Shown here one piece after another: positions 4,184 to 38,964 of a DNA stretch of 64,000 bases. How positions within the stretch are numbered: the first letter of the stretch is position 1; every line of letters begins with the position of its first letter. This stretch comes from an uncultured Persicobacter sp. (lineage in GTDB: Bacteria > Bacteroidota > Bacteroidia > Cytophagales > Cyclobacteriaceae), in assembly GCA_947498325.1 (NCBI GenBank), contig CANMKE010000012.1, positions 59,165 to 123,164 of the forward strand. Reading direction: 5' to 3'. The notes beneath the pieces are model-generated. The model saw only the letters and a program-made list of their open reading frames with translations. It was not told where the DNA came from and made no database searches. Position numbers and translations under genes: made by a program.

Positions 4184-4903
4184 ATGATGATGGAGAACCA
4201 AAATTTATTATTGATCAGTAACTCGACCATGCCGACAGAGGCCTACCTGGGTTACTGCAAACAAAATATCACCACTTTTTTAGGCGAGGTCAAAGAAGTA
4301 CTGTTCGTACCGTATGCGGGAGTTACTTTTTCTTATGACGACTATGCCAAAAGTGTCGCTGATGCATTGAGCCCGCTGGGGATCAAGGTTACTGGGATTC
4401 ACACGGTGGAAGACAAGCAAAAGGCCGTCGCTGAGGCTGCTTCCATTATGGTGGGCGGAGGTAACACCTTCGAGCTTCTACACCAACTTTACGAGAATGG
4501 ACTTGTGGATTTGATCAACGAAAAAGTCAGCAAGGGCACTCCTTATATTGGCTGGAGTGCAGGATCCAATATGGCCTGCCCGACGATCAAAACGACCAAC
4601 GACATGCCGATTACGATGCCTAAATCCTTCGATGCCCTGAATTTGATCCCTTTCCAGATCAATCCACATTACACCGAAGAGCGCATTCCAAACCACGGTG
4701 GCGAGACACGCCCTTTGCGTATTGAGGAGTTTTTAACCAAGAACACCGACATGGCCGTTTTGGGGCTTCCTGAAGGCTGTATGCTGGAGATTCACGGTAA
4801 ATCGATGAAATACATCGGTGGCCACGCAGGAAAACTATTCATCAATGCCAAAGAAAATAAAACGATTGACGAAAACAGTGACCTTTCTTACCTTCTGGAC
4901 TAA
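4184..4903 (+). CDS. pepE: Peptidase E (alpha-aspartyl dipeptidase)
   Basis: Cytoplasmic serine dipeptidase of family S51, which cleaves N-terminal Asp-X dipeptides. The 239-residue length is typical. The nucleophile sits in the elbow GWSAGSN (Ser about 125), preceded by the glycine-rich VGGGNTF strand. The conserved INPHYTE supplies the candidate catalytic His (about 162). There is no signal peptide. Three in-frame ATG codons lie in a row at 4184, 4187 and 4190, so the exact start is uncertain by two residues. It is a single gene, ended by the strong hairpin just downstream. Confidence 0.9.
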   Translation: MMMENQNLLLISNSTMPTEAYLGYCKQNITTFLGEVKEVLFVPYAGVTFSYDDYAKSVADALSPLGIKVTGIHTVEDKQKAVAEAASIMVGGGNTFELLHQLYENGLVDLINEKVSKGTPYIGWSAGSNMACPTIKTTNDMPITMPKSFDALNLIPFQINPHYTEERIPNHGGETRPLRIEEFLTKNTDMAVLGLPEGCMLEIHGKSMKYIGGHAGKLFINAKENKTIDENSDLSYLLD

Positions 4904-4925
4904 GTAGGATAAACTACTGTAAAGT

Positions 4926-4965
4926 AAAAAAGCCTTGGATCGATAGAGATCCAAGGCTTTTTTTG
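4926..4965 (+). terminator. Terminator of pepE (bidirectional)
   Basis: An 11-base perfect stem GCCTTGGATC(G)/GATCCAAGGC, flanked by A-run and T-run, with a 6-base loop. It can also serve purB from the other side. Confidence 0.9.
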
Positions 4966-5065
4966 TTTAATCAATACCACCGAATGCGCAATGCTCTCGG
5001 TGGATGTTCAGTGTGCACTACCGCAAATATTCCCGGCCTGCCACTTATTTTTATGATTTCAGAAA

Positions 5066-7935: not shown

Positions 7936-10368
7936 TCAATCCTTGCCAAACAGCTTCCTGAAGAAACCTTTGCGCTTTTTCTTCTTGCGCGTTTTGGCTT
8001 TTTCCTCCCGACGTTCTTTGCGTTCCTGCTGCTTGATCGGGTCAATTTTAAAGAGGTCTTTGATGGTGTCGACCACATTATCATTCGGCAGCTCTTCCAC
8101 CCAGTCGGCACAATTCATGGCCTTCACCTCATAGCTGGTCAGGGCAGGAAACTGCGCTTTGGTGATCAGGCCAAATTCAGGTGTACGGTTCATCTTTTGC
8201 ATAAACTTACCGAAAATTGGCAGCGCTGTATTGGCTCCCTGTCCCAGTCGGGTGCTTCTCCACCGAATTGCAGGCTCATCATTTCCTACCCAGGTCCCTA
8301 CCACCAGTCGAGGGCTCACCCCCATAAACCAGCCGTCCGTATTGGACTGCGTCGTTCCTGTTTTTCCTGCAAGCTCATTGTTCAGCCCGTAAACTCTTCT
8401 TAACCTGCTTCCTGTTCCTTGATTGACTACCGATTTCATCATGGCTAAAATCTGATGATCCGTAGCCGATTTAATGATTCTATCGCCTCTGCCTGCGCCT
8501 TCATTTTCATAAAGAACATTGCCTTGCCCATCCACAATTTTAGTCAGAAAACGAGGGCTTACCTTATAGCCGCCATTGGCCAGCGCACTGTAAGCTGAAA
8601 CCATCTCCTGAATAGAAACCTGTGGTGTACCTAAAACCGTGGAAGGGGGAATCTGCCCCTCATCATTTTCCATTTTTTCAATCCCCGAAATACCAAAACG
8701 CTTCAGGTAGGTCGCCACATTGTCCAGGCCTGCCTCCAGTTCCACCTGCACCGACACCGTATTGACCGAGTTGGTCAGGGCGCCTTTCATTGAATAATAA
8801 CCATCGTATTTGCCATCAGCATTCCCTGGCGCCCAGGTATCTTCAGGGTATGCGCCATTTTCATCAGGCTTTACCGCATGCCAGCCATTTTCGGCATCGT
8901 TGAGGTAATGTTGCTTAGCCACTGGATAGTAATCACAGGCTTTTGCCCCCTGCTCCAGGGCAGTAGCATAAACCAGCGGCTTGAGGGTAGAACCTACCTG
9001 TCTTTTATAATATTTACTTGCATGGTCAATTTTGAGGTGTTCATGATCTACCCCACCGATATAAACTTTAATATCGCCCGTCTGGGGTTCCATGGCCACC
9101 ATTCCCATATTCAGAAAATGCAAGTAATGCTTAATCGAGTCATTCGGGCTCATTTTCACCAGCTTCTTCTCATAGTCATCGGTCAGGATTTCCATGTTTA
9201 CTGGCGTCGCAAAAGACTGCTCAATTTGTTCAGGGCTTGCCTTGGCTGCCAACAGGCTTTTATAGCGCTGGCTGTTTCTTTTTGCACGTTCAAATACGGC
9301 AGGGTGCCCTTTCCATGGAGTACGCCCCTTCCAGTGCTGATTGAACGATTTTTGTAAATTCACCATATGCTCCTTCATGGCTTCTTCTGCCAGTGTTTGC
9401 ATGCGGGAATCAATGGTCGTGTAAATTTTCAGCCCGTCACGGTAGAGGTCATATTGCTGCTCTTTGGGAAATCCCTCATTAATACTGTCGAGTTTGGCCA
9501 GTACCACCCTTCTGAGTTGTTCCCTAAAATAAGTGGCAATACCCGTATTTTGACCAAAAGAACGGTACTTGGTTTTCAGGGGAAGGCGTTGCAAAGAATC
9601 CTCCTGCGCCAATGTAAGGTAATTGTACTTCTGCATTTGCGAGAGCACAATATTTCGTCGTTTGAAGGCGTGGTCAGGGAATACCCTCGGGTTATAATAA
9701 TAATTGGCCTTGAGCATGCCGATCAACACTGCGGCATCCTGCGTGCTGAGGTCTTTGGGCTCACAACTGAAGAATTTACGGCTCGCCGTCTGAATTCCAT
9801 AGCTATTATCGCCAAAGGGCACCGTGTTCAGGTAAAGATTAATGATTTCCTCTTTGGTGTAAAGATCTTCGATCGTGCGGGCAATAATGACTTCCTTGAT
9901 TTTTGAAGCCACCAAATCCAGCTTGCTGCCTCCCGCTCTTGGAAAGAGGTTTTTGGCCAGTTGCTGCGTCAGGGTAGAGCCTCCACCCGAGGAGCGATTA
10001 CCTAAAAGCAATGTTTTAACAAAAACCCGCGCCCAGGCACGGTAATCCACACCATCATGCTCGAAAAAGCGGGCATCTTCCGTGGCCACCAAAGCATGTA
10101 CCAGATCAGGGGAAAGATCTTTATATTTGATATTGGTACGCTCTTGAACGAAGTATTTCCCCAATATTTTTCCGTCGGCACTGTACACCAATGCCGCCTG
10201 ATTATTCTCAATTTTTTTGAGGTCTGCTGCTGTGGGCAAATCCCCAAAGGCGCCCATTTTTATGGACAATACAAAACCTACAATAAAAATGACACCAGCC
10301 AAGGCTGCTGCCAGCCCGACAATCACTACTTTCCCAAAGTGGGACTTATTCCAAAATTTCTTTAACAC
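7936..10368 (-). CDS. Class A penicillin-binding protein 1A
   Basis: Bifunctional peptidoglycan synthase of 810 residues, anchored by one N-terminal membrane segment (about residues 13-35) with the enzymatic domains in the periplasm. The glycosyltransferase (GT51) domain shows TEDARFFEHDGVD, with the catalytic Glu near residue 97, and GGGSTLTQQLAKN. The transpeptidase domain shows the acylation motif STLKP, the SVN triad element and KTGTT. The C-terminus ends in a very basic Lys/Arg-rich tail containing ARTKKKK-like runs, which is probably disordered. It polymerises lipid II and cross-links the stem peptides. It has its own terminator and is separated by 80 bases from the peroxidase gene upstream. 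The symbol could be mrcA or ponA by convention. Confidence 0.95.
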   Translation of the reverse strand: MLKKFWNKSHFGKVVIVGLAAALAGVIFIVGFVLSIKMGAFGDLPTAADLKKIENNQAALVYSADGKILGKYFVQERTNIKYKDLSPDLVHALVATEDARFFEHDGVDYRAWARVFVKTLLLGNRSSGGGSTLTQQLAKNLFPRAGGSKLDLVASKIKEVIIARTIEDLYTKEEIINLYLNTVPFGDNSYGIQTASRKFFSCEPKDLSTQDAAVLIGMLKANYYYNPRVFPDHAFKRRNIVLSQMQKYNYLTLAQEDSLQRLPLKTKYRSFGQNTGIATYFREQLRRVVLAKLDSINEGFPKEQQYDLYRDGLKIYTTIDSRMQTLAEEAMKEHMVNLQKSFNQHWKGRTPWKGHPAVFERAKRNSQRYKSLLAAKASPEQIEQSFATPVNMEILTDDYEKKLVKMSPNDSIKHYLHFLNMGMVAMEPQTGDIKVYIGGVDHEHLKIDHASKYYKRQVGSTLKPLVYATALEQGAKACDYYPVAKQHYLNDAENGWHAVKPDENGAYPEDTWAPGNADGKYDGYYSMKGALTNSVNTVSVQVELEAGLDNVATYLKRFGISGIEKMENDEGQIPPSTVLGTPQVSIQEMVSAYSALANGGYKVSPRFLTKIVDGQGNVLYENEGAGRGDRIIKSATDHQILAMMKSVVNQGTGSRLRRVYGLNNELAGKTGTTQSNTDGWFMGVSPRLVVGTWVGNDEPAIRWRSTRLGQGANTALPIFGKFMQKMNRTPEFGLITKAQFPALTSYEVKAMNCADWVEELPNDNVVDTIKDLFKIDPIKQQERKERREEKAKTRKKKKRKGFFRKLFGKD

Positions 10369-10448
10369 CTTAACGAACGCTTTCTTTCTAAAAATGCCTC
10401 AAATGGCTGAATTTAAGGGCAAAGATAAGGATAGCGTTGAGAAAATTG

Positions 10449-11474
10449 TTAATTTTTTTCATTCGTATTGAAGGGGTTCGAAAGTTCCTCATTCGAAAGA
10501 TAACTTTCGTCGGTCAGTGTGTTCAGGAAAGCGATCAAATCCACCCTTTGTTGTTGGTTGAGATTAATCCCTCCCTCATGCTTCATTAAAGGGTCGGTGT
10601 ACTTGGTAAAATGAACACCTTCGGCATAAAAATCGACCACCTGCTCCAGGGTTTCAAAGCGGTTATCGTGCATATAAGGAGCAGAAACGGCAATATTACG
10701 CAAGCTTGGGGTTTTGAATTTACCGATATCAACGGAGTCCTGAGAAATAACATACCGCCCAGCATTCCCTAAATTGAAAGTGCTGTCCAAGCCAATATTA
10801 TGAAAATCACTATCAGAAAACAGCACCGTGCTATGGCAGTGAAAACAGTCACCATCTTCACTGAAGAAAAGCTCAAGCCCCCGTTTTTCCTGTTCAGAAA
10901 GCTGAATTTCGCCCCGATTGTACTGATCGAATTTTGAGTTACCGCTCAGCTGTGTTCTTGAAAATTGCGCCAGAGCATAAGCCATCGTCTGATAATCAAT
11001 ATCATCTTTCCCAAAGGCAACTTTGGCCAATCGCTTATATTCCGCATCGGCATTGACATAGCTCAGGTCTGCGGCAAAAAAATCTTTAATCTCGAAGAGC
11101 ATCACATCCTCGAGAATCCCCTGTTCTGCGCCATTCCATAAAAAGGAGGTCTCATAAGCCAAGTTTACATGAGGCATAATTGCCAACTGCCCTTTTTCAC
11201 CAGGACTGCTAAATCCTGCTTTTTGCTGATGGCAATCGCTACAGGCCACCCCCACCTTTTGGGTATTCAATGACCTGTCGTAGTAAATTCTTCGCCCCAT
11301 TGCCACGCCTTCCACCGTCATCGGATTATCTTCAGGGAGACTGATTTTGGGAAATTTTGCAGGCGCTTCCAATGCGTAGGGTGTCGCTACGTTTTCCTGT
11401 GCAGGCTCTTTTTGCCACACACACGAAAATGCCATGGCGGTCAGTGCAATCAACAAAAATGTATATTTTCTCAT
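10449..11474 (-). CDS. Di-heme cytochrome c peroxidase family lipoprotein (MbnH/MauG-like)
   Basis: Exported di-heme protein of 341 residues. The signal sequence ends in the lipobox AFSC (Cys 18), predicting a lipoprotein. Two covalent heme sites are visible: CSDCH (Cys78, Cys81, His82) and CFHCH (Cys210, Cys213, His214). Bacterial cytochrome c peroxidases reduce H2O2; MauG and MbnH instead use the hemes to oxidise protein side chains. The gene lies 7 bases behind an MbnP-like gene, the same pairing as mbnP-mbnH, so modification of that partner is the favoured inference. A plain peroxidase cannot be excluded. The ATG at 11472-11474 is chosen because it begins the signal peptide; a frame extension upstream would overlap the neighbouring gene. 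Confidence 0.88.
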   Translation of the reverse strand: MRKYTFLLIALTAMAFSCVWQKEPAQENVATPYALEAPAKFPKISLPEDNPMTVEGVAMGRRIYYDRSLNTQKVGVACSDCHQQKAGFSSPGEKGQLAIMPHVNLAYETSFLWNGAEQGILEDVMLFEIKDFFAADLSYVNADAEYKRLAKVAFGKDDIDYQTMAYALAQFSRTQLSGNSKFDQYNRGEIQLSEQEKRGLELFFSEDGDCFHCHSTVLFSDSDFHNIGLDSTFNLGNAGRYVISQDSVDIGKFKTPSLRNIAVSAPYMHDNRFETLEQVVDFYAEGVHFTKYTDPLMKHEGGINLNQQQRVDLIAFLNTLTDESYLSNEELSNPFNTNEKN

Positions 11475-33186: not shown

Positions 33187-33221
33187 AAAAAAAATCGGCA
33201 GACAAAAATTGCCTGCCGATT
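33187..33221 (-). terminator. Terminator after the LRR gene
   Basis: Stem AATCGGCAG/CTGCCGATT with an 11-base loop, followed by a T-run on the minus strand. It closes the four-gene unit starting at 38203. Confidence 0.85.
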
Positions 33222-33247
33222 CATGCTTCCTGTACTCGTCGGGTTCA

Positions 33248-35881
33248 TCAATAATAATTCACCGACAAGGTTGCGTGTTTTGCCTTAAGCTTCTCGATAT
33301 CCGAGCTTCTTACTTTTGAATTATAACATGAAATTTTCTTCAAGTTAGGGCAATCTGCCAAGCGGGAAATTCCTCGAATTTTAGTATTGTAAAAAGAGAA
33401 GTCCTCCAAACTTTTAAGCATCTCCACCCCATGAATCCGCTTAATGCGGGTACCTGCAATGTTGAGTTGCTTCAGCTGAGGCAGCGTAGCGATAGGGTCA
33501 AACAAAGGCACCTGTGCATTCTCAAGCAACAGCACGTTCAGATGCTGCAATTGACTAACCGTTTCAATATTTTCAATAGGATTATTGGAAATATCAAGGT
33601 AGGTCAGGCCGGGGTGTTTGGCCAAAGGACTGATGTCCATCAGGCGGGTATTGCGAGCCACAAGGCGCTTCAGGTTTACGAAAGGCGCCAAGGCATCGAG
33701 CCGCTGAACATCAGGCATATTGGAGAGGTCGATTTGATCGCTCAAAATCAACTCATGCAACTGCTCTGAGGTGGGCAACAGCCCCAGTCCTGTATTTTTA
33801 TCAAAAGCACTTTTCCATGCCCTTGACATTCCCGACCACCATTGCTTCAGTGCTTTGGTTTTGTAGATCACCATGGCTTTGGGATGCACCTGTAAAAATT
33901 CTTTCACGTCCTGATCTTCCACCCGTGTATCGTCAAAATGGATTTTCGAAAGCTGTTTCAGGCTGTCCAGTGCTTTCAGGTCGCCAACCTGTGTTCCATC
34001 TCCATTAATTTGCTTCAGCTGATGCAAAGATTTCAGGTCGGTGATGGTGGCAATCGGTGTGCCCGAAAAGTCTATTTTCTCCAGCTGCCCGAGGCTTTTC
34101 AATGCGCTCAGGCTGGTAACTTTGGTATCGGAGAGGTTGAGCTCTTGCAAGCTGACCAAATCCTTCAGTGGGTCAAGTCGATAAACCCCTGTATGTGAAA
34201 TATCGAGTTTTTTCAGGTTGACCAGCATCCGCAATGGTTCCAAATCCATGATGTCCTTAGCGTTCACCGCTAAATCTGTCACCCCAAAAACCGTTTGATG
34301 CAACCACTCCCCTGTTGGTTCCTGAAGGCTGTCAGGGAGCATGGCATGGAATACCTCCGCCCAGGCAGAGGGAAGCGTTTGCCACCATTGCTGTAACATT
34401 TTTGAATCTGCCACCACCAGTGTACCCGCTTTTTCACGCATAAACTTCTGTGCATGATTAATATCTACGCCAGAGTTATCGCAATACACCGTTTTTAATG
34501 ACGGCAACTCCTGAAGTGGCGCAAGGTCGGCAACCCTGGTATTCTTGATAAAAAGCACCTGTAGCTGCGTTAGTGGTTTCAGTACCGAAAGGTCTGCAAT
34601 ATTGGTATTGGTCAATTCCAGTTTTTCAAGTTTTTTGAACTGGGCAAGCTGCTGAAAATCAACCAGCGAATCTGACTCCAGATGCAATTCTGTCAGGCTG
34701 TGAACCTCGGCAAGCGGGCTGAGGTCATAGTTGGCCGTTCCGGACAGGTCAAGCACTTTTAAATGATTGTTGTACTTTAGAATATTGAGGGAATCGAAAG
34801 GGGTATATGCTAAATTCAGACGTTGAATCCCCCGAAGCCTACTGAGGGTCAGGGCATTTTCAATGGGGCTGTATTGTGCAGATAATTCCTTTAACGAGGC
34901 CAAATAGCGCAGATTGCCCAAATCACGAACTCGGGTGTAGGAAATGTCCAATCGTTCGAGCTGTGTCATATTTCGAACCATATAAAGCGTATCGATGAAA
35001 GTATGACTCAGGTTGAGGGTACGAAGGTTGGTCAGTTTGTTCAGCGGGTCAAAATCATAAAGCTCCATATGATCTGATAGATCCAAAGCTTCTGTGCTTA
35101 CTGCACGCTTTATCGCATTGATGTAATCAGCCTTCGTGATGGCCACTGCTGATGAATCGACTGGTTGCGTGCTCAGGCTGTCGGTGGCTGGTGCCGGCAC
35201 CTGTTCCGCAACGGCAGAAGAATCGGGGGCAACAAACGGCTGCAGGTCTGCAAGCTTGCTGCTGTCCGCAAGGAAGGTATGGCTTCCAAGAATGGTTTTC
35301 CAGTTTGGCGACAAGGCAAACCACCATTTATAAAGTTCTTCGTCCTCGTTCAGTTTGGTAGAATATACACTGACGATTTTCACGGTTTCATCACTCTGAT
35401 TCACCGTCATTTCAAAATATACCGTTTTGGTATCTTCCACCGCCTGCCGATCCTTCACCAATATCCCCTGCAGGTTGCGCTGGGTTTTAACGATCAGGCT
35501 ATACTCCCCCTGGTCGTTTACTAATGGTTCAATGGATTCTACCGTATAGTTAAATTGCACCTGACGATAAAAGAAGGTAATGTCTTTTAAATAGGCCTGC
35601 GCATCTTTATAATAAGGAACGAGGCGGTTGGCATCCAAATCGTCCTCTATCTGAACTTTGGAATCACGGATTACCCGCAGGTAACTTTCCGACACAATAC
35701 GCTCTTTATCATCCATGGCTTCAGTAGAATCGCCAAGAATATTCACATAAACCTGCCAGTAATTAATCAGGAGGCCAGCATCTTCTTTGTATTTATCGAG
35801 CTTCTCCTGCTGGGCAAAGCCTTTCCCCACCATGCCCAGACAAAGGATCAAAATGATCCAGATTTTATTTCTTCCTTGCAT
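33248..35881 (-). CDS. Large secreted leucine-rich-repeat protein
   Basis: 877 residues. A signal peptide (about 1-23, ending GFA-QQ) is followed by an N-terminal module (about 33-180) resembling the protein encoded at 36820. A Ser/Ala/Pro linker (about 215-250) and three blocks of roughly 22-residue leucine-rich repeats come next (about 275-475, 545-660, 720-855). The repeats have the form LxxLxxLxxLxLSxTxIxDL, as in internalin-like proteins. Before each block stands a segment with tryptophans spaced exactly WW-x6-W (residues 186/194, 499/507, 681/689). Blocks one and two end in a similar helix before the next WW segment. No enzyme domain or cell-wall anchor is visible. It probably acts in the periplasm or at the cell surface in protein binding. 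It is last in a four-gene unit of exported proteins. Function is unknown. Confidence 0.88.
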   Translation of the reverse strand: MQGRNKIWIILILCLGMVGKGFAQQEKLDKYKEDAGLLINYWQVYVNILGDSTEAMDDKERIVSESYLRVIRDSKVQIEDDLDANRLVPYYKDAQAYLKDITFFYRQVQFNYTVESIEPLVNDQGEYSLIVKTQRNLQGILVKDRQAVEDTKTVYFEMTVNQSDETVKIVSVYSTKLNEDEELYKWWFALSPNWKTILGSHTFLADSSKLADLQPFVAPDSSAVAEQVPAPATDSLSTQPVDSSAVAITKADYINAIKRAVSTEALDLSDHMELYDFDPLNKLTNLRTLNLSHTFIDTLYMVRNMTQLERLDISYTRVRDLGNLRYLASLKELSAQYSPIENALTLSRLRGIQRLNLAYTPFDSLNILKYNNHLKVLDLSGTANYDLSPLAEVHSLTELHLESDSLVDFQQLAQFKKLEKLELTNTNIADLSVLKPLTQLQVLFIKNTRVADLAPLQELPSLKTVYCDNSGVDINHAQKFMREKAGTLVVADSKMLQQWWQTLPSAWAEVFHAMLPDSLQEPTGEWLHQTVFGVTDLAVNAKDIMDLEPLRMLVNLKKLDISHTGVYRLDPLKDLVSLQELNLSDTKVTSLSALKSLGQLEKIDFSGTPIATITDLKSLHQLKQINGDGTQVGDLKALDSLKQLSKIHFDDTRVEDQDVKEFLQVHPKAMVIYKTKALKQWWSGMSRAWKSAFDKNTGLGLLPTSEQLHELILSDQIDLSNMPDVQRLDALAPFVNLKRLVARNTRLMDISPLAKHPGLTYLDISNNPIENIETVSQLQHLNVLLLENAQVPLFDPIATLPQLKQLNIAGTRIKRIHGVEMLKSLEDFSFYNTKIRGISRLADCPNLKKISCYNSKVRSSDIEKLKAKHATLSVNYY

Positions 35882-35919
35882 TCTCTATTGATTCTTTATG
35901 GAATAAAAAATGGCACTTG

Positions 35920-36744
35920 TTATTCCTGCTCCTGTATATAAGCCTTGAGCTTTTCTTTTGTTGGCTGATCGGCCTGCACGAGGTTGGTCATCAACCAACC
36001 CGCATTTTTCCCGGCGCGGTTAATCTCTGAGACCTGAAAATACCAGCCCTTCACCTGAAAGAAGTGAAGATTCACCTGCGAGACACGCTCAAACTTCAGC
36101 AACCCTCTTTTCATATCCGCCAGAAAAACCGTCAGTGTATTGGGCTGATACCCTTTTTGAATATAGTCTTCGAGGTTCTCCGGGTGGTTCATCGCTTTCT
36201 CCAGAGGCATAAAATAAAGCTCATGGCTCATGGGATTGAGGAATTTTTTAGGCGCATGGTTCATATTGAACAGTTTGTCGTAAGGGGCAAAATTGATCCT
36301 GTCGATCACCCACTTCCAGCCTCCGTTTACCTCTTCGAGGGTCAGGAAAAAAGTCATGGGCATTTGCTTCCCCTGATAGTCCACCATCGTGCGCACTTCA
36401 GCAAACCAGTTGGGGTTGTAGAAATCCAGAAATTGCGGATCATTGGCATCAAGTACCCGCTCGCCAAAAGCCTGAAGCTGATCGGCCACCTGCTTATTTT
36501 GCTGATCGATCAGCTGTGGCAAAAACCGCTTCCTTAGTCGGTCGCCATGGTAATTCCTGTCCGTAGGCAGTAAACGTTGCCCCCTTAAGGTTTCCTCGCC
36601 GTTAAACCTTCGGATAAACTGATTCACCTGCTTTGTACGGGCATAAAAATCTTCCGCATTGAGGTAGTCACCAATCTGGGCATGCGCCAGCAAATTCGAG
36701 CAAGCACACAGCAGCAATAGCATTAAGCGTTTTAAAGATAGCAT
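35920..36744 (-). CDS. Secreted protein of unknown function
   Basis: 274 residues with a signal peptide (about 1-22, ending AHA-QI). The mature protein has a helical front (FIRRFNGEETLRG), then beta-rich segments: EVRTMVDYQGKQMPMTFFLTLEEVNGGWKWVIDRINF, and later VNLHFFQVKGWYFQVSEIN. The layout (helices then a sheet ending in an Arg/Phe strand) is what one expects of an NTF2/SnoaL-like domain, possibly two. I do not recognise a named family. It lies 38 bases upstream of the LRR gene without a terminator between, so the two are co-transcribed. The terminator-like hairpin in front of it may separate or attenuate it from the first two genes. Confidence 0.8.
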   Translation of the reverse strand: MLSLKRLMLLLLCACSNLLAHAQIGDYLNAEDFYARTKQVNQFIRRFNGEETLRGQRLLPTDRNYHGDRLRKRFLPQLIDQQNKQVADQLQAFGERVLDANDPQFLDFYNPNWFAEVRTMVDYQGKQMPMTFFLTLEEVNGGWKWVIDRINFAPYDKLFNMNHAPKKFLNPMSHELYFMPLEKAMNHPENLEDYIQKGYQPNTLTVFLADMKRGLLKFERVSQVNLHFFQVKGWYFQVSEINRAGKNAGWLMTNLVQADQPTKEKLKAYIQEQE

Positions 36745-36768
36745 AACTGATTATCGTTTTCATCCAAT

Positions 36769-36807
36769 AAAAAAACAGGCAAAACGCACCACGCCTTGCC
36801 TGTTTTT
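36769..36807 (-). terminator. Internal terminator/attenuator in the exported-protein unit
   Basis: Perfect 10-base stem AAAAACAGGC/GCCTGTTTTT with a 17-base loop and T-run on the minus strand. It lies between the second and third genes; no clear promoter follows it, so partial read-through is probable. Confidence 0.75.
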
Positions 36808-36819
36808 CAGAAAAGATGT

Positions 36820-37398
36820 TTACTTATAGGTGTTCGTTACCCGAATATCACCCAACATCACATCCCAAAAACCGATCGTTCTGCCTTGAATCGTGGTCTT
36901 CTTTCGTTCTACATATACGGTAATATCTTTCTTGGTGGTATCGACATATTTCATCCCATCCTTGCGCTTCCCTTCAAATCGCTGATAAATGGTGATGACC
37001 CCCACATAACGGCCGTCGGCCTGTTTTACCAAATCAGAAATATACTGAATGTGAAACCACTCAATATTCACCTGATCGTAATTGAGCAGCTTCAGCCTTT
37101 TAAGATAATCCTTTACGCCGTATGCTTTGGTTTTCTGGGTATTCAATGACGAGACATCAATTTGCGCATCGGCATCGAAGAGCTCTACTGCGCGCTCAAT
37201 AGCCGCATTGGCCTCCACATCACGGGTTTTCTTATCGCCGATGATGGTGATGTACTTACTCAGGTCACGCACTTTCTCCAATGCGAGAGAATCAATGGCC
37301 TGCTTTCGGTCGGGGCTGATGTCTGGCTCTGCAGATTGCGCCCATACATTGGCACTCGCCGTAAGCAGCAGCACCATAAAAAAGAATTGCTTAATCAT
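36820..37398 (-). CDS. Small secreted protein, module shared with neighbouring genes
   Basis: 192 residues. A signal peptide (about 1-20, ending VWA-QS) is followed by one module of about 140 residues: LSKYITIIGDKKT, AIERAVELFDADAQIDVSSL, VKDYLKRLKLLNYDQVNIEW, then GRYVGVITIYQRFEGKR. By eye the same arrangement (GD near the start; YLK-x6-Y-x-QV; LV-x4-G-x-Y; TKK or TKT strand) recurs in the N-terminus of the LRR protein, and a shorter version closes the lipoprotein encoded just upstream. The fold looks NTF2-like; this is inference. The start is the ATG at 37398, with an alternative five codons earlier at 37413. Ten to 25 bases separate it from the lipoprotein gene. Confidence 0.8.
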   Translation of the reverse strand: MIKQFFFMVLLLTASANVWAQSAEPDISPDRKQAIDSLALEKVRDLSKYITIIGDKKTRDVEANAAIERAVELFDADAQIDVSSLNTQKTKAYGVKDYLKRLKLLNYDQVNIEWFHIQYISDLVKQADGRYVGVITIYQRFEGKRKDGMKYVDTTKKDITVYVERKKTTIQGRTIGFWDVMLGDIRVTNTYK

Positions 37399-37423
37399 TT
37401 TTGCTGATATCATAATGCACTAC

Positions 37424-38203
37424 TTATTTTTGAAGTTCCAACAAACGAATTTTACCGCTGGCATCTGTTTCAATATTCTCGATGCTGTACGGTGCTTTTT
37501 TCTGTAATTTCAGGTATTCCAAATATTGCCCAATGGTGGTTGGCTTGTCAAAATCCTTTTCCCCATCGAAAACACCAATAATAATCAGCACATCCACATT
37601 TGGGTTAGAGAACAAGCTCAGTGCTTTCTCAATCTCCTGGTCTGCTTTTGCAGGAGAGCTTGCGCTGCCAATATTGCGCATGTACTCGTTGAGCCTCACT
37701 TTGGTTGGGCGGGCATCCGAAGCACGCTTCTCACGGGCTGTAATCATACTGTCGAGTTGGTTGGCTTGCGCTTTAACTTCGCTGTAAGGAGAGTTGTGGA
37801 GTTTCTCCGTTTCTTCTTTCAGGTAAGCCAGGTCGTAATTTTCAAAATTATCTATCAGTAACTGCGCGTGGTTGAGTTGTTCTTTCACCGACAGCTTTTC
37901 CTCCACTTTTTTGAGAATGGCCTCCACTTGCGCATTACCAGCGGCTTCGGAACGAATTCTGCTGACTTCACTTTTAACATGGTCAACAGACATTTTATTC
38001 ATATTATCATAAAGATATTGCGCCTGCTCGACCAACTCCTGAGTTTTGTTGCTGACCTGACTGACCTCCTGAGCGACAGGTTCACTTTGCGCAGGTTTCT
38101 TTTTACAGGATTGCAGGGAGGCTGCGGCAAATAGCCCAAGTGCAAGCATCATTGGGCGGAAACCGCCTGCGAAGAAGGTAGCGTTTACCAGTGGTTTATT
38201 CAT
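37424..38203 (-). CDS. Coiled-coil lipoprotein, first gene of exported-protein unit
   Basis: 259 residues. The signal segment ends in lipobox LQSC (Cys about 33) followed by KKKP, predicting a lipoprotein. Two helical, charged regions (about residues 45-110 and 105-160) look coiled-coil. The C-terminus (about 185-259: ADQEIEKALSLFSNPNVDV, IGQYLEYLKLQKKAPYSIENIE) resembles the middle of the module in the next gene, as if the module were truncated here. No known family. It is preceded by a good promoter and begins a unit of four exported proteins. Confidence 0.8.
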   Translation of the reverse strand: MNKPLVNATFFAGGFRPMMLALGLFAAASLQSCKKKPAQSEPVAQEVSQVSNKTQELVEQAQYLYDNMNKMSVDHVKSEVSRIRSEAAGNAQVEAILKKVEEKLSVKEQLNHAQLLIDNFENYDLAYLKEETEKLHNSPYSEVKAQANQLDSMITAREKRASDARPTKVRLNEYMRNIGSASSPAKADQEIEKALSLFSNPNVDVLIIIGVFDGEKDFDKPTTIGQYLEYLKLQKKAPYSIENIETDASGKIRLLELQK

Positions 38204-38237
38204 CGGTATGATATTTAATAGTTAGTTTCAAAAAAGA

Positions 38238-38266
38238 CAAAAATAGGATTATGCTCCTGTTTACAA
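38238..38266 (-). promoter_or_regulatory. Promoter of the four-gene exported-protein unit
   Basis: On the minus strand TTG (38264-38266), 18 bases, then a perfect -7 element TATTTTTG (38238-38245). The leader would be about 28 bases. Confidence 0.65.
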
Positions 38267-38526: not shown

Positions 38527-38964
38527 ATGATCGACCGCAAGCCATATCCCGTTCTTTTCTCCCTGTGTTTTCTCTTCCTGTTTTCTTCCATGACGTTTGC
38601 TTTTGCGCAACAGCCTTCCGATCAATTGAAGTCTTACATCCTGCCTGCAATTTCACACCTATTACCTGATGAACACATGGACTTTACGGTTTTCGATAAA
38701 GATCAGCAACATTCTTTTTTTCATTTCAGAATTGATCAGCCCATGGATTTGATTCGGTTCAGGGAGCGACTCGCACCCGTGGACAATCAGTCGTTTTGTG
38801 AGGTACTGAAAAAGAAATGTGTTTCGTGGAAAGGGGAAGACCACCTTGAGGAACAGGTGAAAATGGGAATGATTTATACTGGCAAGATGACGATTAACCA
38901 ACAACAGGCACTTGTTGCCCTTGATCGGCAGGGGAATGTGTTCTGTTACGTAGAGAATTTGTAG
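38527..38964 (+). CDS. Small secreted protein of unknown function
   Basis: 145 residues with a long signal peptide (about 1-27, ending AFA-QQ). The mature 118 residues have two cysteines (SFCEVLKKKC), a strand-turn pattern and a closing VALDRQGNVFCYVENL. I do not recognise a family. It is alone, divergent from the exported-protein unit and 68 bases before the FAD oxidoreductase on the same strand. Confidence 0.65.
   Translation: MIDRKPYPVLFSLCFLFLFSSMTFAFAQQPSDQLKSYILPAISHLLPDEHMDFTVFDKDQQHSFFHFRIDQPMDLIRFRERLAPVDNQSFCEVLKKKCVSWKGEDHLEEQVKMGMIYTGKMTINQQQALVALDRQGNVFCYVENL

Follow-up and report, generated by a model that had tools for sequence, protein, structure and literature searches.

A conserved cassette in a Persicobacter genome encodes predicted exported proteins that share a module of predicted NTF2-like fold

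We analyzed a four-gene cassette in a 64,000-nucleotide stretch of DNA from an uncultured Persicobacter sp. (GenBank assembly GCA_947498325.1, contig CANMKE010000012.1, positions 59,165 to 123,164), hereafter called the window. The cassette lies on the minus strand, and we refer to its genes, in order, as D, C, B, and L (Table 1). According to the open reading frame (ORF) list, they are separated by gaps of 10, 75, and 38 bp. Searches of the window's own genome found a single copy each of C, B, and the L N-terminus. For D, C, and B, no family in Pfam or NCBIfam scored above cut-off, and L matched leucine-rich repeat (LRR) models alone (LRR_4 at E 3e-48). The L repeats fall into three blocks, each opened by a WW-L-W cap, at residues 186, 499, and 681, and at least two WW are present in 31 of the 32 LRR-type L proteins from fetched loci. 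The motif upstream of D, TTG...TATTTTTG, is presumably a Bacteroidota promoter consensus.

Table 1. Features of the cassette, with coordinates in the window.
Feature	Coordinates	Strand	Description
Promoter-like motif TTG...TATTTTTG	38238..38266	-	42-63 bases upstream of D's ATG; pattern match
D, coiled-coil lipoprotein, 259 aa	37424..38203	-	Cys33; half of the shared module in residues 165-259
C, secreted protein, 197 aa	36820..37413	-	Stand-alone NTF2-like module (predicted); most conserved part
Terminator-like hairpin between C and B	36770..36808	-	-29.2 kcal/mol, z -7.7, U-run
B, secreted protein, 274 aa	35920..36744	-	Obligate neighbour of C
L, secreted LRR protein, 877 aa	33248..35881	-	Shared module in residues 24-205, then three WW cap + LRR blocks
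Terminator-like hairpin 3' of L	33192..33222	-	Fold -23.6 kcal/mol, z -3.9

D, C, B, and L form a conserved cassette. Among 98 relatives searched, C was found in 49 genomes and B in 48. Each of the 51 B genes counted (with second G039 gene fragments left aside) shares the strand of a C gene and lies 3-257 bases downstream from it; B is missing for 6 of 57 C genes. We read 53 C loci, chosen for diversity rather than at random, and at 31 of them (30 of 52 distinct; loci L051 and L087 represent a single place) the genes run in the order D-module gene, C, B, L-type gene. One of these 30 distinct full-order cassettes, L065, has a kinase in place of D. Among relatives with a name, Persicobacter sp. 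CCB-QB2 (L087) is the nearest, and its C is 82% identical to that of the window. Identity to the window protein is 53-63% for most aligned C orthologues and mostly 34-45% for B; outside the genus, it is 26-34% for L and 19-35% for D.

Linkage and co-occurrence extend across the order, where our counts come from 150 listed matches each for C and L. In 390 order genomes, among the matches listed, C lies upstream within 6 kb of 82 of the 96 LRR-type L genes (classed as such by score, individual LRRs unchecked). Short C and LRR-type L occur together in 95 of these genomes, C only in 2, L only in 1, and neither in 292, among the matches listed and in counts that take no account of phylogeny. The earlier note on this DNA had proposed gene-neighbourhood conservation as a check, and the genes are indeed adjacent in most relatives that have them; of the 14 L genomes without C nearby, 13 have C elsewhere (among the matches listed).

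C homologues make up 4728 protein clusters; no Pfam domain was present in any of the 120 that were listed, which suggests a widespread envelope component that has no name. A broad spread through the phylum was rejected, as matches occurred in 11 of 395 genomes at E<=1e-5. Within the order, a count of 213 of 390 genomes (alignment A5, among the matches listed) is inflated: 59 of these were judged to have weak hits only (E about 1e-11 to 1e-5), and about 154 remain. Weak A5 matches re-examined in 10 order genomes fell on an N-terminal extension, not on the module. Long C forms with this extension include L122 5631-6746 and L067 8885-10075, and weak matches to it are scattered across many order genomes. 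Genomes outside the window's class also encode a C-like protein of 223 aa (L115 5852-6523; L116 6299-6970), in L116 near family B DNA polymerase and lumazine synthase genes. Literature searches, with subscription journals outside their scope, found no published description of this cassette.

The earlier note had aligned C with the N-terminal part of L by eye, and profile comparisons support a common module. BLASTP of C against L gave no match. By hhalign, C and L residues 24-205 are collinear over 130-139 columns, with a probability of 26-95% depending on the rows used, and the score exceeded those of shuffles wherever that control was run. LRR-type L rows alone gave 59.5%, 26.3%, 46.4%, or 70.5% across profile versions (collinear, 131-139 columns), addition of the L075 and L076 rows (tetratricopeptide repeat, or TPR, type) gave 85.3% or 92.4%, and all 24 L rows gave 94.8% (P 4.8e-8, score 53.5; maximum of 60 column shuffles 22.7) or 93.8%. 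Six rows of the L alignment (A7) are non-LRR, and four of these were added by position and by eye, with possible circularity; the comparison repeated without those four still gave 85-92%, and a profile lacking them (one that spans the signal peptide) recovered them at E 8e-26 to 1e-7. The last 95 residues of D match C at 88.6-95.5% (score 39.6; shuffle maximum 21.5); the earlier note had likened the last 75 to the middle of the module. Among proteins of the fetched loci, hmmsearch with a C profile built without D or L rows finds the window D at 8e-7 and L proteins from 3e-6, and an LRR-type L profile without C rows finds C proteins from 3e-6. Altogether, these comparisons indicate that the module common to C, the L N-terminus, and (as a half) D is real, although BLASTP is blind to it. 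Two further loci carry matches to C: a 125-aa C-profile match between D and C (L061 10503-10880), perhaps another module copy, and a 468-aa protein (L079 8141-9547) in which the C module follows an N-terminal half judged caspase-like by eye, with no Pfam match.

The NTF2-like fold, a guess in the earlier note, was borne out for C by structure prediction. C is confidently predicted to be NTF2-like (cystatin-like), with helices packed on a strongly curved sheet. By homology to C over most of the module, L residues 24-205 would belong to the same superfamily. Searches of solved chains gave nothing significant for C (phmmer) or for C and B (profiles), with best E values of 0.32 and 0.15. For B, structure prediction gave weak hints of an NTF2-like fold with no support from sequence: hhalign against the module reached at most 0.6%, and on sequence alone we reject the divergent module copy that the earlier note had suspected in this protein.

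The C-terminal arm of L is exchanged among relatives. TPRs replace LRRs in the large proteins of L065, L067, L075, and L076, and the N-terminal L module is kept. The LRR-type L profile matches the TPR-type N-termini of L076 (1.7e-12) and L075 (6.5e-7), and once these two are added, the profile matches L067 (8e-26) and L065 (8e-22). The large protein of L072 is short, at 345 aa. Beside C and B, and near ClpV-like and TssC genes, L070 encodes an 802-aa TPR/CARDB protein (8985-11393) that weakly matches the L module at 533-613.

The anchor is exchanged as well. Three relatives (G028, G812, and G031; loci L065, L139, and L140) have a Ser/Thr kinase at the place of D. The L065 protein hits PF00069 (E 9.6e-30), and comparison of its kinase part with the other two gave E values of 1.4e-76 and 8.5e-74. 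Each of the three combines a hydrophobic, transmembrane-like stretch with a D-like tail of about 90 residues, and a profile of the three tails aligns end-to-end with the D module (P 1.3e-6, score 38.0; maximum of 100 shuffles 18.1). Downstream of the kinase, L065 and L139 have C, B, and a large L-module protein (with TPRs checked in L065 alone), and L140 has a 291-aa gene followed by an L-type protein, without C or B. Upstream of the kinase, L065 (11948-14688) and L139 (10766-13650) encode a secreted protein of about 354 aa and a larger protein with a C-terminal end that looks gliding- or type IX secretion system (T9SS)-like by eye.

Relatives of C and L also occur in type VI secretion system subtype iii (T6SSiii) loci. 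In L122, the gene for a long, 371-aa C is grouped with OmpA-family and L-type genes beside those for PAAR, TssC, two TssD, VgrG, and a ClpV-like protein. The same C-OmpA-L trio stands about 13 kb from ClpV-like, TssC, VgrG, and TssN genes in L131/L132, with FHA, kinase, and PP2C genes in the interval. Among the matches listed, TssC lies within 30 kb of 19 of 53 long-C genes; all 19 belong to one family, f11, which accounts for 30 of the 53, and OmpA directly adjoins C in 11 of the 12 f11 genomes searched (coordinates compared by eye). As a named example, the 76-kb plasmid NZ_CP030851.1 of Runella rosea (Spirosomataceae; L134, L135) encodes C (E 1.9e-32), OmpA, and an L-like WG-repeat protein, which was found at E 4.5e-9 when 12 proteins were searched with filters off and missed with default filters. 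FHA, PP2C, kinase, and caspase genes surround this trio, and T6SS genes lie elsewhere on the record.

The window cassette itself appears free-standing. Its genome (99.87% complete) gave no TssC match, in a search that did not cover other T6SS core genes; among the matches listed, TssC is present in 4 of 97 short-C genomes, in none of them on the contig of C. Nor did the Pfam models of TssN, TssO, and TssR match any of the four window proteins at E<=1 (HMMER filters drop most weak matches). In the parts of PMC10781749 drawn on here, genomes lacking other T6SS genes have no complete TssNQOPR set; the window proteins are not TssNQOPR by Pfam and therefore do not contradict that statement. The same parts describe some T6SSiii in which TssO, Q, and R are absent or not recognised, with Spirosoma, Hymenobacter, and Flavobacterium as notable cases, and other genes as possibly co-opted where membrane-complex genes are missing. 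TssR was found in 10 of 64 TssC genomes, at one site each. By coordinates, it stands beside none of 19 cassette-bearing TssC loci, compared with 10 of 56 others (Fisher P 0.057); this contrast is a hint short of significance, and the idea that the cassette replaces TssR was rejected.

The cassette proteins are predicted to be exported (signal peptides read by eye, without a predictor) and D to be lipidated. Cys33 of D (CKKKPAQ in the window; lipobox read by eye) is invariant in 20 aligned rows, and K or Q follows the Cys in 29 of 32 D proteins. The lipoprotein surface export signal is described, in the portion of PMC5080379 used here, as requiring acidic residues after the Cys. This signal of surface-exposed Bacteroidota lipoproteins was not found in D: positions +2 to +5 are free of acidic residues in all 29 scored proteins, in rows pre-selected for K/Q after the Cys, with 3 of 32 unscored and one place counted twice. 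Likewise, no T9SS C-terminal sorting domain (Por_Secre_tail or CHU_C) matched L, B, C, or D at E<=1. The lack of a T9SS tail and of an acidic export signal in D suggests that the cassette proteins are periplasmic. As for expression, the single promoter-to-terminator unit claimed in the earlier note has to be corrected in one respect: it is interrupted by the strong terminator-like hairpin between C and B, which none of 200 shuffles equalled in stability. An equivalent is present in Persicobacter sp. CCB-QB2; among the other relatives, some have hairpins of another kind at this place, and in many the genes overlap instead. This suggests that D and C may be produced in excess of B and L. Divergent from the cassette, a 145-aa ORF with a signal-like N-terminus (38527-38964) adjoins it in L051 too (4565-5002).

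We propose that the products of this conserved cassette, in which D, C, and L carry one module of predicted NTF2-like fold, assemble as a lipoprotein-anchored periplasmic scaffold with an LRR arm that binds a client or ligand, and we give this reading a probability of about 0.5. Complex formation, the location, and a role in sensing or client binding are our inferences; a single complex of these parts is a reasonable reading of their linkage and co-occurrence. In this model, C would be the core module, the L N-terminal module and the D half-module would pack against C or each other, and B would be the obligate partner of C. The C-terminal repeats of L would serve as an exchangeable reading arm (LRR in the window, TPR in relatives), likely binding the client or ligand. 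The D module would be a docking piece, with the lipoprotein likely anchoring the scaffold to a membrane. In three relatives, the docking module is instead carried by a Ser/Thr kinase with a transmembrane-like stretch, so that the scaffold there would be the outer half of a sensor. The earlier note is, overall, partly confirmed in its observation and partly supported in its interpretation.

Several points weigh against this model. Linkage and co-occurrence show that the genes are functionally coupled, which does not amount to contact. The C-L match reaches just 26-71% when LRR-type rows alone are used; D carries part of the module only (its alignment with C covers 64-80 columns), a direct D-L match is absent (at most 1.7% by hhalign), and B has no sequence link to the module. 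The strong C-B hairpin speaks against one uniformly transcribed operon. Cassette flanks differ between clades, and no fixed neighbour names a client. The D profile alone finds two of the three kinase tails (3e-3, 5e-4) and misses that of L139; the kinase tail is present in just 3 of the 98 genomes searched, and D of the window lacks a kinase.

Instead of a sensor, the cassette could encode a structural part of a secretion or other envelope-spanning machine, in which NTF2-like modules build a periplasmic ring or cage. The joint presence of C, OmpA, and L-type genes in the T6SSiii loci of L122 and L131/L132, the proximity of long C to TssC in the 19 of 53 listed cases, and the Runella rosea plasmid point this way, as do the T6SSiii membrane genes that are missing or unrecognised in some systems, in the parts of PMC10781749 cited above. 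Yet we consider such a machine unlikely, given a window genome without a TssC match, the rarity of TssC among the listed short-C genomes, and a TssR contrast short of significance; the FHA, kinase, and PP2C genes of the same loci suit regulation equally well.

It is more doubtful that C and B act as enzymes or binders of small ligands with an NTF2-like fold, co-regulated with the LRR protein, with the module likeness reflecting old fold kinship. The structural matches of the predicted C do include LinA and ketosteroid isomerase, enzymes of the NTF2-like fold, and the superfamily has catalytic and non-catalytic members, according to the portion of PMC3924330 drawn on. But no enzyme family model in Pfam or NCBIfam matches C, and C and L co-occur even when apart. 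The repeated occurrence of the module, in L, D, and kinase tails, suits docking better than catalysis.

We give little credence to L as an internalin-like surface adhesin with D, C, and B as its export or display helpers: internalin A is the best NCBIfam match of the L LRRs, and internalins are among its best solved-structure matches, behind bacterial Rab-family LRR chains (which we take to be Roco-type), but the internalin score is 134 bits against a curated cut-off of 1600, TPRs replace the LRR arm in homologous cassettes, and neither a T9SS tail in L nor a surface-export signal in D was found. A role in phage defence was rejected, as PADLOC gave no match.

The scaffold model relates to known systems in several ways. 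C shares the predicted cystatin-like fold of the NTF2-like superfamily, and here the module recurs in neighbouring exported proteins, in a lipoprotein, and in kinase tails. The FHA, PP2C, and kinase genes near C-OmpA-L, together with the D-tailed, transmembrane-like kinases of three relatives, recall Ser/Thr kinases with extracytoplasmic domains, whereas the window D is a lipoprotein without a kinase. Ser/Thr kinases with FHA and PP2C partners occur in T6SS threonine phosphorylation pathways. Internalins of Listeria have LRRs in common with L, which instead places three capped LRR blocks behind an NTF2-type module. The T6SSiii complex TssNQOPR, as far as it is described in the parts of PMC10781749 used here, is, as the scaffold would be, a membrane-anchored periplasmic multi-gene assembly with a lipoprotein; relatives of C and L lie inside the T6SSiii loci of one family, and the window cassette is free-standing.

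Arm exchange (LRR or TPR) and anchor exchange (lipoprotein or kinase) occur across relatives. Tentatively, then, the window may hold the free-standing, T6SS-less form of an undescribed Bacteroidota envelope sensor, an NTF2-module scaffold with swappable docking piece and arm. One family would have taken it into T6SSiii loci, with OmpA replacing B, as an envelope part outside the published TssNQOPR inventory. If this is true, the cassette would supply candidates for those envelope parts that are absent from some T6SSiii or not recognised there, as described in the cited parts of PMC10781749, and it would offer a testable handle on envelope sensing or bracing in some Bacteroidota.

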